The position numbers were made by a program, and so were the translations under genes. A DNA stretch of 64,000 bases, taken from Verrucomicrobiia bacterium. Lineage in GTDB: Bacteria > Verrucomicrobiota > Verrucomicrobiia > Verrucomicrobiales > Akkermansiaceae. Shown here piece after piece: positions 12,488 to 21,008 of this stretch (positions are counted from its first letter, which is position 1; every line of letters starts with the position of its first letter). The notes under the pieces are model-generated. The model saw only the letters and a program-made list of their open reading frames with translations. It made no database searches and was not told the origin of the DNA. Location of the stretch: the NCBI GenBank assembly GCA_030431475.1, contig JAUIJD010000008.1, forward strand, positions 1 through 64,000. Direction: 5' to 3'.

Positions 12488-13339
12488 ATGGCCGGCTTTC
12501 TCTCCTCCATCTACAAAAAGCTGACGAATCAGGCCGAGATCGACTGGGACGAACTCGAGGCTGATTTCGTCGCCGCCGACCTCGGACCGAAGCTCGCGAT
12601 GCAGCTGGTCGATGAGCTCCAGGAACTCGGCCGCGCGGTGTCGGCCGACGATGTGGCGGAGGTGGCGCGGAAGCGCATCGCCGAGCGCCTGCCGGTCGAT
12701 CAGCCTCCCCCGCTCCCGCCCTCGTCGGACAAGCCCTTCGTGTTCCTGGTCGTCGGCGTCAACGGCGTGGGCAAGACCACCTCCTGCGCCAAGCTCGCCC
12801 ACTGGCTCCAACGCCGCGGTTCGCCCACGGTGCTCGCCGCCGCCGACACCTTCCGCGCCGCCGCCACCGAGCAACTCCAGCGCTGGGGCGACCGGCTCGA
12901 CATTCCGGTCGTCACCGGACCACCCAACTCCGACCCGTCATCCGTCTGCTACAATGCCCACCAGCAGGCGATCCACGACGGGGCCCGCTACCTGATCTGC
13001 GACACCGCCGGCCGCCTCCACACCCGTCACAACCTGATGGAGGAGCTTTCGAAGATCCGCCGCACGCTCGCCAAGCAGGACGAAAGCGCCCCCCACCTGA
13101 CCCTGCTCACGGTGGATGCCACCACCGGAACGAACGCCCTCCAACAGGCCAAGGTGTTCCACCAGGCCTCGCCGCTCGACGGCCTGATCGTCACCAAGAT
13201 GGACGGCTCCGGAAAGGGCGGGATCGTGGTGTCCATCCACGACCAACTCGGCATCCCTCCCCGTTTCATCGGCACCGGTGAGGAGCCCGAGCAGTTCTCG
13301 CTGTTCAACAAGAACCACTTTCTGGAAGAGCTCGTTTGA
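12488..13339 (+). CDS. ftsY: Signal recognition particle receptor FtsY
   Basis: FtsY is the GTPase receptor that docks SRP-bound ribosomes at the membrane. The 283-aa protein has the NG domain only: N-domain helices, P-loop GVNGVGKTT, DTFRAAATEQL insertion-box sequence, DTAGRLHTRHNLMEEL, TKMDGSGKGG and the closing GTGEEPEQF. The acidic A domain found in E. coli is missing, as in many other phyla, so membrane contact would depend on the N-terminal amphipathic helix (AGFLSSIYKKL). It is the first gene of a coupled trio; its stop overlaps the next start as TTGA. Confidence 0.95.
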   Translation: MAGFLSSIYKKLTNQAEIDWDELEADFVAADLGPKLAMQLVDELQELGRAVSADDVAEVARKRIAERLPVDQPPPLPPSSDKPFVFLVVGVNGVGKTTSCAKLAHWLQRRGSPTVLAAADTFRAAATEQLQRWGDRLDIPVVTGPPNSDPSSVCYNAHQQAIHDGARYLICDTAGRLHTRHNLMEELSKIRRTLAKQDESAPHLTLLTVDATTGTNALQQAKVFHQASPLDGLIVTKMDGSGKGGIVVSIHDQLGIPPRFIGTGEEPEQFSLFNKNHFLEELV

Positions 13340-14391
13340 ACCGGCCGCCCGCCATCACCGGACTCGGCGTGCTCGGGCCGCTGGGCCACGACCTCGAACA
13401 ACACCGGCGCGCCCTGGCATCCGGCCGCCGCCCCCTGCGACCTCTCGGCGGGATGCCCGGTGCTCCCGTGGGCTTCGGGCAGCTCGAAGCGGGCTGGATC
13501 GAGCCCCGCGACCTTCTCCGCGACCGCAAGTGGTCCCCCTCCTCGATGGCGGCGATCCATGTCGCACGCCAGGCCCTCGATCAGGCGAACTGGACGGACA
13601 CCGAGCGGCGGGACGCGACCGTGTTCTTCGGCACCAGCCGGGGACCCCTCGCCGGGTGGACCGACCCGTGGCCCGGACGCCGGGGCTTCGACCTGCTTGC
13701 CGCCACCAATTCGCTCCCGGCCGAACCCGCCGCCGCCGTCTCCGCCACCTTCGGGATCGAAGGCCCCTGGCAGGTCAGCTCGACGGGCTGCTGCGCCGGC
13801 CTCGATGCCCTGGCCACCGCGGAGATGTGGATCCGCGGGGGCCACCTCGAGCGGGCCCTGGTGGTCGCCGTCGACCTGCCCCTGGTGGCCCCGGTACTCG
13901 ACGCCTACGCCCGCACGGGTCTGCTCGCGGGCGAGGGCCGCGAGGGCATGATCCCCTCCGAGGCCGCCGCCGCCGTCTGCCTCGAACGCGACGGGCGCGA
14001 CGGCCAGGCCCGCCTGCTCGGGTGTCTCGCAGCCGCCGACCCCTCCGCACTCGTTGGCAGCGGTCGCGATGGACAGCCCCTCGCCCGCCTTCTCGACACC
14101 GCCCGGGCGCGATACGGGGAACCCGGGTACGCCGTACCTCACAGCAGCGGCACCACCAGCAACCTCCGGGTCGAACGGGAAGCACTCGGCTCGGTGTTCG
14201 GGCCCGACCTCCCCATCGCCGCCTACAAGCCGCACACCGGGCATGGCATCGGGGCGGGCGGACTGCTCGAACTCGCCCTCGCCTGCGCCGCCATTCATCC
14301 TCCCGACACCCCGGTTCCGCCCCGGGGTTCCTTCTTCAAACTCGCATCCGCCCTCGGAGGGCGCCACTCCCTCGCCTGCATCGATTCATGA
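13336..14391 (+). CDS. Stand-alone beta-ketoacyl synthase-like protein
   Basis: A 351-aa thiolase-fold protein related to FabB/FabF condensing enzymes. The active-site cysteine is in SSTGCCAGLDALA, the first catalytic histidine is probably in VPHSSGTTSN, and the Lys/His element is KPHTGHGIGAGG. It is about 60 residues shorter than FabF, mostly in the N-terminal half. The TTG start overlaps the ftsY stop codon (TTGA), and its own stop overlaps the next start (ATGA). No acyl carrier protein or other fatty-acid genes are nearby, so it may belong to a pathway split over the genome, such as an aryl polyene or a special lipid. Its function is open. Confidence 0.8.
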   Translation: MNRPPAITGLGVLGPLGHDLEQHRRALASGRRPLRPLGGMPGAPVGFGQLEAGWIEPRDLLRDRKWSPSSMAAIHVARQALDQANWTDTERRDATVFFGTSRGPLAGWTDPWPGRRGFDLLAATNSLPAEPAAAVSATFGIEGPWQVSSTGCCAGLDALATAEMWIRGGHLERALVVAVDLPLVAPVLDAYARTGLLAGEGREGMIPSEAAAAVCLERDGRDGQARLLGCLAAADPSALVGSGRDGQPLARLLDTARARYGEPGYAVPHSSGTTSNLRVEREALGSVFGPDLPIAAYKPHTGHGIGAGGLLELALACAAIHPPDTPVPPRGSFFKLASALGGRHSLACIDS

Positions 14392-15509
14392 AACCCGATC
14401 ACATCGAAGTCTCCATCGACCGCCAGGAACTCACGCTCCACTCGGGCGACCGCATCCTCCAGCGATGGCCCGTCTCCACCGCCGCGCGAGGTGTTGGCTT
14501 CACCGAGGGAAGCTTCCGCACACCGACGGGCCGCTTCCGGATCGCCGACAGGATCGGAGCCGGCGCCGCGCCCGACACCATCTTCCGCGGCAGGCTTCCC
14601 GATGGAGTCTGGGACGGATGCCCTTGTGACGACGACCTCGTCGTATCACGCATCCTCCGACTGGACGGCACCGAGCCCCGCAACGCCAACACCTATCAAC
14701 GTTTCATCTATATCCACGGCACGAACCATGAGGACCGGCTCGGCAAACCTCACAGTTGCGGATGCGTTCGGATGTCGCGGGCCGCAATGATCGAACTCTT
14801 CGACCAGACTGAAGAAAACATGGAGGTGATCATTCATCCTCCCACGCAACGGCGGGGAAAACTCATCTTCTTCGACTGCGACTCCACCCTCTCATCCATC
14901 GAGGGCATCGACGAACTGGCCCGTTCCGCCGGCCCGGAGGTCTTCTCCCGCATCGAGTCGCTCACCCATGCGGCCATGAACGGGGAAATCCCCCTCGACC
15001 AGGTGTTTCCCCGCCGGATGGAAAGCCTCGCGCCCGACCGGACACTTTGCGACCGCATCGCGGCGCAATACATCGAGACCGAGACTCCCGGGTCCGCCCG
15101 ATTCATCGACGAATTGCGCCGGGACGGCTGGACCCCCGTCATCCTCTCCGGTGGTTTCGAACCGCTGATCCGCCCTCTCGCCGACAAACTCGGCATCCGT
15201 CACGTCGAAGCGGTACCGCTCCATTTCAACGACGATGGAAGCTACCAGGGATACGGCACGGACTATCCGACAACCTATAACGGAGGAAAACCCGAGATCA
15301 TTCGCGAATGGAAGGAGGCGACCCTTCCCGAGCACGTGATCATGGTTGGCGATGGCATTTCCGACCTTGAAACAAAATCCGAATGCGACCTTTTCATCGG
15401 ATACGGAGGTGTGGTCGAACGTGAACCGGTGAAGCAGGGCGCCGATTTATGGGTCACGAATTTCAATGATATCACCACCGCACGGATCCGCTCCCTGATG
15501 AAATCATGA
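14388..15509 (+). CDS. L,D-transpeptidase (YkuD) fused to SerB-like HAD phosphatase
   Basis: One uninterrupted 373-aa frame joins two enzyme domains. Residues 1-150 form a YkuD domain with the catalytic motif HGTNHEDRLGKPHSCGCVRM (Cys near residue 125), the fold that makes 3-3 peptidoglycan crosslinks. Residues 158-373 form a HAD-IB phosphatase with DCDST near residue 163 (nucleophile and acid Asp), ILSGGF for motif II, and VGDGISD for motif IV, resembling phosphoserine phosphatase SerB. There is no signal peptide, which is odd for a transpeptidase. An internal ATG at about 14818 could start the phosphatase alone but lacks a ribosome binding site. The start overlaps the previous stop. Confidence 0.85.
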   Translation: MKPDHIEVSIDRQELTLHSGDRILQRWPVSTAARGVGFTEGSFRTPTGRFRIADRIGAGAAPDTIFRGRLPDGVWDGCPCDDDLVVSRILRLDGTEPRNANTYQRFIYIHGTNHEDRLGKPHSCGCVRMSRAAMIELFDQTEENMEVIIHPPTQRRGKLIFFDCDSTLSSIEGIDELARSAGPEVFSRIESLTHAAMNGEIPLDQVFPRRMESLAPDRTLCDRIAAQYIETETPGSARFIDELRRDGWTPVILSGGFEPLIRPLADKLGIRHVEAVPLHFNDDGSYQGYGTDYPTTYNGGKPEIIREWKEATLPEHVIMVGDGISDLETKSECDLFIGYGGVVEREPVKQGADLWVTNFNDITTARIRSLMKS

Positions 15510-15582: not shown

Positions 15583-15957
15583 ATGAGCAGCAAAGCAAAG
15601 AAGGCGGTCAAAAAGACCGCCAAGAAATCCAACAAGGGCAAGCGTTACACACCGGCCCAGAAGAAGGAGGTCGTCGATTTCGTCAACGAAGTGAACTCCT
15701 CCAAGGGCCGCGGTGGACAAAGCGCCGCCTCGAAGAAGTTCGGAATCTCGCCCCTCACCATCTCGAGCTGGCTGAAGGCCACCGGATCCGCTCCGAAGAA
15801 GCGCGGGCGCAAGGCGGCTGCCGCGAAGGCCTCCGCCGGCGGTTCCCTCGAGAAGAAGCTCGACCGCCTGAAGAACCTCGCCAAGGACATCGACGCGACC
15901 GAGAAGAAGCTCAAGCAGCTTCGGGGACAGTTCGATTCCCTCAAGGCCTCGCTCTGA
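15583..15957 (+). CDS. Lysine-rich HTH DNA-binding protein
   Basis: A small basic protein (124 aa). Residues 1-22 are a histone-H1-like tail (SKAKKAVKKTAKKSNKGKR). Residues 25-70 form a helix-turn-helix resembling the InsE/IS3-type transposase N-terminal domain (SAASKKFGISPLTISSWLK). A second basic segment (KKRGRKAAAAKAS) leads into a C-terminal coiled coil (LEKKLDRLKNLAKDIDATEKKLKQL). No transposase catalytic domain follows and no inverted repeats flank the gene, so it is likely a domesticated nucleoid-associated or regulatory protein rather than an IS remnant. A strong terminator follows it. Confidence 0.8.
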   Translation: MSSKAKKAVKKTAKKSNKGKRYTPAQKKEVVDFVNEVNSSKGRGGQSAASKKFGISPLTISSWLKATGSAPKKRGRKAAAAKASAGGSLEKKLDRLKNLAKDIDATEKKLKQLRGQFDSLKASL

Positions 15958-16584: not shown

Positions 16585-19416
<2,832 letters not shown>

Positions 19417-19477
19417 GGCAATGCGGAAGTCGGACCGGCGCGGGCCGGCCTGAAAAGTGGGCGACAAAGGAAGCGGG

Positions 19478-19855
19478 TCAACCGATCATCCCGCGATAGG
19501 CATCGGCATCCATCATGCCCTCCACCTGCGAGACGTCCTTGACCTTCAGTTTGTAGATCCAGCCCTGACCGTAGGGGTCGCTGTTGACCAGCGACGGATC
19601 CGCCTCGACCGCCTCGTTCACTTCGACCACCTCCCCGGCGACCGGCGAGTAGATGTCGCTGGCGGCCTTGACCGATTCCACCACGGCGGTCGGATCGCCG
19701 GCATCGACGGCGCGGCCGACCTCGGGAAGCTCGACGAAAACCACGTCGGTCAATTCTTCCTGGGCGTGGTCCGAAATGCCGATGGTCGCGGTGTCACCTT
19801 CAAGGCGCACCCACTCGTGGGACTTGTTGTAGCGAAGTTCGTCGGGGACGTTCAT
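19478..19855 (-). CDS. gcvH: Glycine cleavage system H-protein
   Basis: GcvH shuttles intermediates between the P, T and L proteins on a lipoylated lysine. The attachment site is the Lys of [12 protein letters not shown], at about residue 63, in a barrel-sandwich hybrid fold of the expected length (125 aa). The N-terminus ([16 protein letters not shown]) is typical. The gene sits 11 bp after gcvT and 61 bp before gcvP. Lipoylation requires LipA, which is encoded at 3.6-4.6 kb in this window. Confidence 0.97.
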
Positions 19856-19866
19856 GGTCAGCAGTC

Positions 19867-20955
19867 TTATCCTTTCTTGTTGGCGGGCTTGTAAAACGGT
19901 TTCTTCACGACGACGGCGGGGAATTTCCGGCCTCGCACGTCGATCTGGAGCGGCGTGCCGACCTTGACCCCCCCGCGCGGCAGGTAGGCCATCCCGATGC
20001 CCTTGCCCAGGCTGGGGGAAAGAACCCCGCTGGTGAGCTCACCAAGGGTCTCGCCCTCCGCCGAAAGCACCGCGTAGTGGGCACGGGGGGGCGCCCCCTT
20101 GTCCGTGTACTCGATCGCGAACAGGCGCTCGTCCGGCCCCTCGGCCTTCTGGGCGGCGACCACGTCACGACCGATGAAATCTCCCTTCTCAAGATCGACG
20201 AAGAACCCGAGACCGGCCTCGACCGGTGTCCGCTCCGGCGACAGGTCGTTGCCGTTGAGCGGGTAGCACATCTCCAGGCGCAGCGTGTCGCGGGCTCCGA
20301 GTCCGCAGGGTTTCGCCCCGGCATCGACGAAGGCCCGGAACGCCCCGGCGCCGTCGGAGGCAGGGCTGAAATACTCGAAGCCGTCCTCTCCCGTGTAGCC
20401 GGTCCGGCAGACGATTCCTCCACCCGGGACCTCCGCGATTCCATTGCGGGGCGGCAACGCAACCTCGGGAAACACCTTCGACCACACCTCGGCGGCGTCG
20501 GGTCCCTGGACCGCCATTCCCGCCCAGGCGTCGCTCTGGTCGAGCAGCTCCACGCCCTCGTCCCGCCGTCCCTCGAGCCACGAGAAATCCTCGGCCATCT
20601 TCGAGGCGTTGACCACGAGGAAGAACTCGTCCTCCGCGAGTCGATAGACGATCAGGTCGTCGATAACGCCTCCTCCCTCGTTGAGGAGGAAGGAATACTG
20701 TCCCTCCCCGTCCCCCAGTTTGGCGACGTTGTTCGCCAGCATCCGGTTGAGCCAGGCCTCGCTTCCGGCTCCCCGCACGATGAACTGCCCCATGTGCGAG
20801 ATGTCGAACACCCCGGCGCCGCTGCGCACCGCCTGATGCTCGTCCATGATGGAGGTGTACATCACCGGCATGTTCCAACCGGCGAAGGGGACCATCCGTC
20901 CCCCGAGCTCGACATGAACGGATTCGATCGGAGAATGCAGCAGATTTTCGGACAC
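19867..20955 (-). CDS. gcvT: Glycine cleavage system aminomethyltransferase (T-protein)
   Basis: GcvT transfers the methylene group from the GcvH aminomethyl-lipoyl arm to tetrahydrofolate, releasing ammonia. Typical motifs are [31 protein letters not shown] and the Asp/Glu-containing [20 protein letters not shown] prefer the GTG at 20955 ([10 protein letters not shown]..., 362 aa); the ORF track begins 12 codons earlier at a TTG inside a promoter-like region. It is the first gene of the gcv operon. I looked for a glycine riboswitch upstream, but only 58 bp separate it from the preceding gene and no such structure is evident. Confidence 0.95.
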
Positions 20956-20975
20956 GCGGCGGAACTTGGGTAAGT

Positions 20976-21008
20976 GCGCCGTAAATGTCAAATCAGGCGC
21001 TTTTTTTT
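20976..21008 (+). terminator. Terminator-like hairpin on the + strand, antisense to gcvT
   Basis: On the plus strand, gcgcc (20976-20980) and ggcgc (20996-21000) form a 5-bp GC stem with a 15-nt loop, followed by eight T residues. The gcv operon and the gene before it both run on the minus strand, so this would stop antisense transcription. The loop includes a perfect TTGACA on the minus strand (20986-20991), which could be a -35 box for gcvT, although no good -10 box follows. Confidence 0.35.

Follow-up and report, generated by a model that had tools for sequence, protein, structure and literature searches.

As judged from sequence comparisons, a 373-codon gene in the window (the whole 64,000-nucleotide stretch of DNA analysed here) very probably encodes a bifunctional cytoplasmic protein that combines an L,D-carboxypeptidase of the ElsL class with a phosphoserine phosphatase (SerB), fused once from neighbouring genes. 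The enzymes themselves are known, and what is new is their arrangement as domains of one protein; our search of the open-access literature found no paper linking YkuD with phosphoserine phosphatase, and a prior report elsewhere is possible. The first-pass annotation had described two complete catalytic domains in one frame, and this description was borne out (Table 1). Pfam models placed YkuD (PF03734, 62 bits) at residues 4-149 and HAD (PF00702/PF12710) at residues 158-328. The NCBIfam models matched below their cut-offs, ElsL (NF040925) at residues 6-149 with 76 bits against a cut-off of 270, and SerB (TIGR00338) at residues 154-350 with 106 bits against a cut-off of 144. Both families are divergent here.

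Table 1. Features of the elsL-serB fusion gene and its upstream neighbours (positions in the window), and positions of DUF1015 genes in loci of other genomes.
Feature	Position	Strand	Basis or remark
elsL-serB fusion ORF, 373 aa plus stop	14388..15509	+	ATG to TGA
N-terminal ElsL-type YkuD domain, residues 1-150, without signal peptide	14388..14837	+	PF03734, NF040925, cytosolic tree clade
YkuD His110 (HGT motif)	14715..14717	+	invariant, 60/60 aligned rows
YkuD catalytic Cys126 (SCGCVRM)	14763..14765	+	invariant, 60/60 aligned rows
Short linker, residues 151-157 (PPTQRRG)	14838..14858	+	
C-terminal HAD-IB phosphoserine-phosphatase-like domain, residues 158-373	14859..15506	+	TIGR00338, phmmer, Foldseek
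HAD motif I, Asp163-x-Asp165 (nucleophile, acid/base)	14874..14882	+	aligned to human PSPH Asp20/Asp22
HAD Lys301	15288..15290	+	aligned to human PSPH Lys158
HAD Asp322 to Asp326 (DGISD, Mg site)	15351..15365	+	aligned to human PSPH Asp179/Asp183
Beta-ketoacyl synthase-like gene, overlaps elsL from upstream	13336..14391	+	PF00109/PF02801
ftsY, upstream, same overlapping gene string	12488..13339	+	TIGR00064, 285.8 bits, over cut-off
DUF1015 (PF06245) loci	L064 3081-4328; L133 2773-4083; L134 2541-3854; L127 2989-4236		

The two domains and the gene neighbourhood

The absence of a signal peptide, reported earlier from the sequence, was confirmed by comparison with relatives. Across about 40 fused loci the start codon is conserved a few residues before the first YkuD strand ('LEVS'), and inspection of these loci by eye revealed no signal peptide, transmembrane helix or hydrophobic leader in the fusion or its fused relatives. 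The genome has a second YkuD protein (L002) with a lipoprotein leader, so that the export signal and lipobox absent from the N-terminal half of the fusion are present in a paralogue of the same genome. In a tree of YkuD proteins from the whole order, the lipoprotein and the leaderless (cytosolic) types split at 100/100. Two genomes of another family in the same order carry ketosynthase-ElsL single ORFs of 583-584 aa (L086 459-2213 and L092 290-2041), and this attachment to a ketosynthase favours a cytoplasmic location. We infer that the fusion protein is cytoplasmic.

The suggestion that the YkuD fold might serve a cytoplasmic substrate has an experimental precedent in ElsL of Acinetobacter baumannii, a leaderless cytoplasmic YkuD L,D-carboxypeptidase which trims recycled tetrapeptides (PMC8649774). 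Its activity requires the YkuD cysteine Cys138, of which Cys126 of the fusion is the counterpart by motif (PMC8649774). Like the A. baumannii protein, the N-terminal half is a YkuD domain of about 150 aa that has the catalytic Cys and no leader, in hosts that usually lack LdcA and have Mpl; unlike it, it has a phosphatase fused on and scores under the model cut-off. The N-terminal half is thus ElsL-like in action but outside the narrow NF040925 model of NCBI, an 'exception'-type model whose cut-off the unfused Akkermansiaceae ElsL proteins also fall short of, at about 90-95 bits. It is probably an ElsL-class L,D-carboxypeptidase, which is likelier than an L,D-transpeptidase, and the earlier name 'L,D-transpeptidase' is probably wrong. 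Seen as an ElsL-type enzyme, a YkuD protein without a signal peptide is no longer a paradox. ElsL orthologues have been reported in all orders of Verrucomicrobia, in a survey that dropped proteins longer than 200 aa (PMC8649774); for that reason the fused forms are missing from it.

The content of murein recycling genes is consistent with this assignment. LdcA (peptidase S66), which catalyses the same reaction in the same pathway as proposed for the ElsL half, has an unrelated fold and a distribution largely complementary to that of ElsL here. None of the 18 genomes of the source genus has it. Among 57 genomes, 47 had cytosolic ElsL without S66, four had S66 without ElsL, one had both and five had neither; cytosolic ElsL was therefore present in 1/5 genomes with S66 versus 47/52 without (p = 0.0015, relatedness ignored). 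G026 is the one genome of the 57 in which LdcA accompanies the fusion. Mpl scored over its cut-off in the source genome and in 51 of the 57 genomes overall.

The C-terminal half is most likely a phosphoserine phosphatase, as suggested by several lines of comparison. Its best phmmer match was human PSPH (E 1.5e-31), and the best Foldseek match, using an AlphaFold model with a mean pLDDT of 78.7, 7 sequences behind it and parts of the YkuD half below 50, was also human PSPH (6hyy, about 34% identity in the fold alignment). The half has the HAD-IB fold with the DxDST, S, K and DGxSD motifs. Of the 42 fused rows, some of which repeat one genome, 40 retain the PSPH residues D20, D22, S23, E29, M52, R65, S109, K158, D179, D183 and R202, and this catalytic and substrate-binding set is kept in 21/21 unfused rows. 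The phosphoserine-binding residues E29, M52 and R65 correspond to E172, M197 and R210 in the fusion; at the positions of PSPH Gly53 and Phe58 there are other residues, mostly Asn/Asp and Ile/Leu. In common with SerB/PSPH (TIGR00338; 6hyy, 1nnl), therefore, it has the HAD-IB fold, all key catalytic residues and most substrate residues, but it differs in scoring under the TIGR00338 cut-off, a score (144 bits) reached in none of the 57 genomes, and in having an N-terminal ElsL domain where some SerB proteins have ACT domains. No other SerB-model match in the genome exceeds 50 bits, and SerA is over its cut-off there.

The coupling to ftsY and a ketosynthase that had been noted earlier was also confirmed, as stop and start codons overlap between ftsY and the ketosynthase gene (TTGA) and between the latter and the fusion ORF (ATGA). 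The ketosynthase-like gene is stand-alone and is retained beside elsL across much of the Akkermansiaceae; it adjoins elsL in most fused relatives and also in several unfused genomes. Just downstream of the fusion, on the opposite strand, are the glycine cleavage genes gcvT-gcvH-gcvP (16585-20991). The gcvP gene adjoins the fusion in many fused relatives, and a distant genome (G298) has an unfused serB beside gcvT-gcvH. Also downstream is a conserved gene for a small basic HTH-like protein (15583-15957) with weak matches to BrkDBD and IS3 transposase; in several relatives an ORF contains the motif twice, and in one of these long low-complexity stretches separate the two copies. The entire elsL-serB gene is missing between the ketosynthase gene and the HTH-like gene in one genome (G029, locus L147), where neither cytosolic ElsL nor S66 was found.

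Distribution and origin of the fusion

A search for the same fusion in relatives, which the first-pass annotation had proposed, found it in a single frame in about 80 genomes, which belong to three genera of the Akkermansiaceae. Every genome of the source genus (18) and of genus g10 (10) has it, as do about 54 of genus g13, with some copies cut by contig ends. Because so many genomes share it, the assembly error or frameshift that had been considered possible is ruled out. Among 388 genomes sampled from the phylum, the fusion was found in none outside the three genera. Other Akkermansiaceae genera have two separate genes, either neighbours or at distinct loci. The idea that homologues might consistently be two proteins consequently failed for one clade, where the fusion is real, and held outside that clade, where there are two genes, often adjacent.

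All 39 sampled fused proteins formed one clade with 100/100 support in a tree of both domains, and this points to a single fusion event. In a tree of ElsL only, the fused rows were not one clade and 5-6 changes were counted, on weak branches. The fusion is old and has been retained since the common ancestor of the three genera. Ratios of dN/dS were about 0.1-0.2 for both halves in most close fused pairs, with the YkuD half reaching about 0.3; both halves are therefore under selection, which speaks against a chance or artefactual ORF.

The unfused elsL/serB pairs were spaced -20 to +33 bp in eight of nine sampled cases, and 1.1 kb in the ninth. Where unfused SerB starts with Met (MKL), the fusion has Gly (GKL). 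Most simply, elsL and serB would have been adjacent and translationally coupled, and the fusion would have formed when elsL lost its stop codon and serB its start codon.

Loss of the SerB half and the occurrence of DUF1015

In two sister genomes (G176 and G203) the YkuD half of the fusion is intact and the HAD half has lost catalytic residues, among them the nucleophile and the Lys. The dN/dS of this decayed half was 0.38 versus 0.11 for the YkuD half. Both decayed ORFs (L072 2677-3810 and L073 2602-3675) keep the HAD half open in frame, and a non-catalytic role is possible. ElsL occurs with no SerB half in three further genomes (G180, G150 and G157), and the ElsL of G180 falls inside the fused group of the ElsL tree with modest support. 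In these three genomes the gene order is ketosynthase - elsL - DUF1015, with DUF1015 (PF06245) occupying the slot of serB.

We compared the occurrence of SerB and DUF1015 in the 255 classifiable Akkermansiaceae genomes. DUF1015 was present in 0/143 genomes with an intact SerB-type HAD and in 98/112 without one, namely 96/110 with SerB absent and both genomes with decayed SerB (G176 and G203); here 'absent' means no match to the fusion query at E 1e-30, unlisted genomes count as absent, some genomes are incomplete, and p-values ignore relatedness. Within genus g13 alone, DUF1015 occurred in 0/53 genomes with intact SerB versus 15/20 without. A test on independent pairs comprised only three well-supported pairs, which were nearly always opposite, and had no power (median p = 0.25). 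In the Akkermansia-like genomes G064 and G019, DUF1015 lies directly before, or near, a serA-like gene.

The simplest reading of these patterns is that the SerB half would perform a step of the serine pathway and that DUF1015 can replace it. We consider it somewhat better than an even chance that DUF1015 is a non-orthologous phosphoserine phosphatase, or completes the SerB step otherwise. A search of the PDB with DUF1015 gave no match, and in the open-access literature we found no paper linking DUF1015 with phosphoserine phosphatase, a prior report elsewhere being possible. ThrH, present in G203, G176, G158, G185, G175 and G184, was considered as a replacement of the decayed SerB half and rejected; most of its occurrences are alongside DUF1015, many genomes without SerB lack it, and DUF1015 fits better.

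Proposed function and its alternatives

In the proposed mechanism, the Cys126/His110 site of the N-terminal half would cleave imported murein tetrapeptides at the meso-DAP-D-Ala bond by hydrolysis, and Mpl would then reuse the resulting tripeptide. In the C-terminal half, Asp163 would be phosphorylated by phosphoserine and the phospho-aspartate then hydrolysed, which would be the last step of serine synthesis. One chain would thus carry two independent active sites for unrelated substrates. Co-expression or stoichiometry alone appears a likelier reason for the join than channelling, since separate genes suffice in relatives and decay of one half occurs. A coupling role beyond co-expression, through allosteric cross-talk or a structural need between the halves, would suit the retention of the fusion since the common ancestor of the three genera, as well as the HAD half staying in frame in G176 and G203 despite its lost catalytic residues. 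We nevertheless think such a role unlikely, given the close relatives with separate proteins, the relaxed constraint on the decayed half relative to its YkuD partner and the genomes in which ElsL occurs without a SerB half.

The HAD half could instead be a phosphatase of the recycling pathway, acting for example on MurNAc-6-phosphate as MupP does, and both halves would then serve murein recycling. This would make the fusion metabolically coherent, and the SerB score of the HAD half under the cut-off is in its favour. However, MupP belongs to a different HAD subfamily, the main substrate-binding residues of phosphoserine phosphatase are kept in the HAD half, and the genome has SerA with no other SerB found. 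The HAD half also lies near gcv genes and is replaced by DUF1015, itself beside a serA-like gene in Akkermansia-like genomes, and we regard a recycling phosphatase as improbable. YkuD enzymes usually act outside the cytoplasm, and this is the argument for a protein exported by a non-classical route with a true L,D-transpeptidase as its YkuD half; export by some such route had been put forward in the first-pass annotation. We give this a very slim chance, as no relative has a leader, cytosolic partners are fused on either side of YkuD in different families, the genome has a separate lipoprotein YkuD, and the distribution is largely complementary to that of the cytosolic LdcA.

The bifunctional ElsL-SerB reading links a seemingly orphan YkuD protein with a known class of recycling enzymes across the Akkermansiaceae, and corrects the 'L,D-transpeptidase' annotation that such proteins likely receive. 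The larger interest is the DUF1015 lead rather than the fusion itself, the loss of the SerB half being a natural experiment that suggests an enzymatic role in the serine pathway for DUF1015. The absence of SerB genes has been acknowledged as a gap (PMC9026213, PMC5764234, PMC7311316): of 2856 gut genomes, 450 encode SerA and SerC but none of the four SerB types considered (PMC9026213), and in Desulfovibrio vulgaris the phosphoserine phosphatase gap was left unfilled (PMC5764234). If the proposed role of DUF1015 is true, it could fill part of this 'missing SerB' gap in hundreds of gut genomes.
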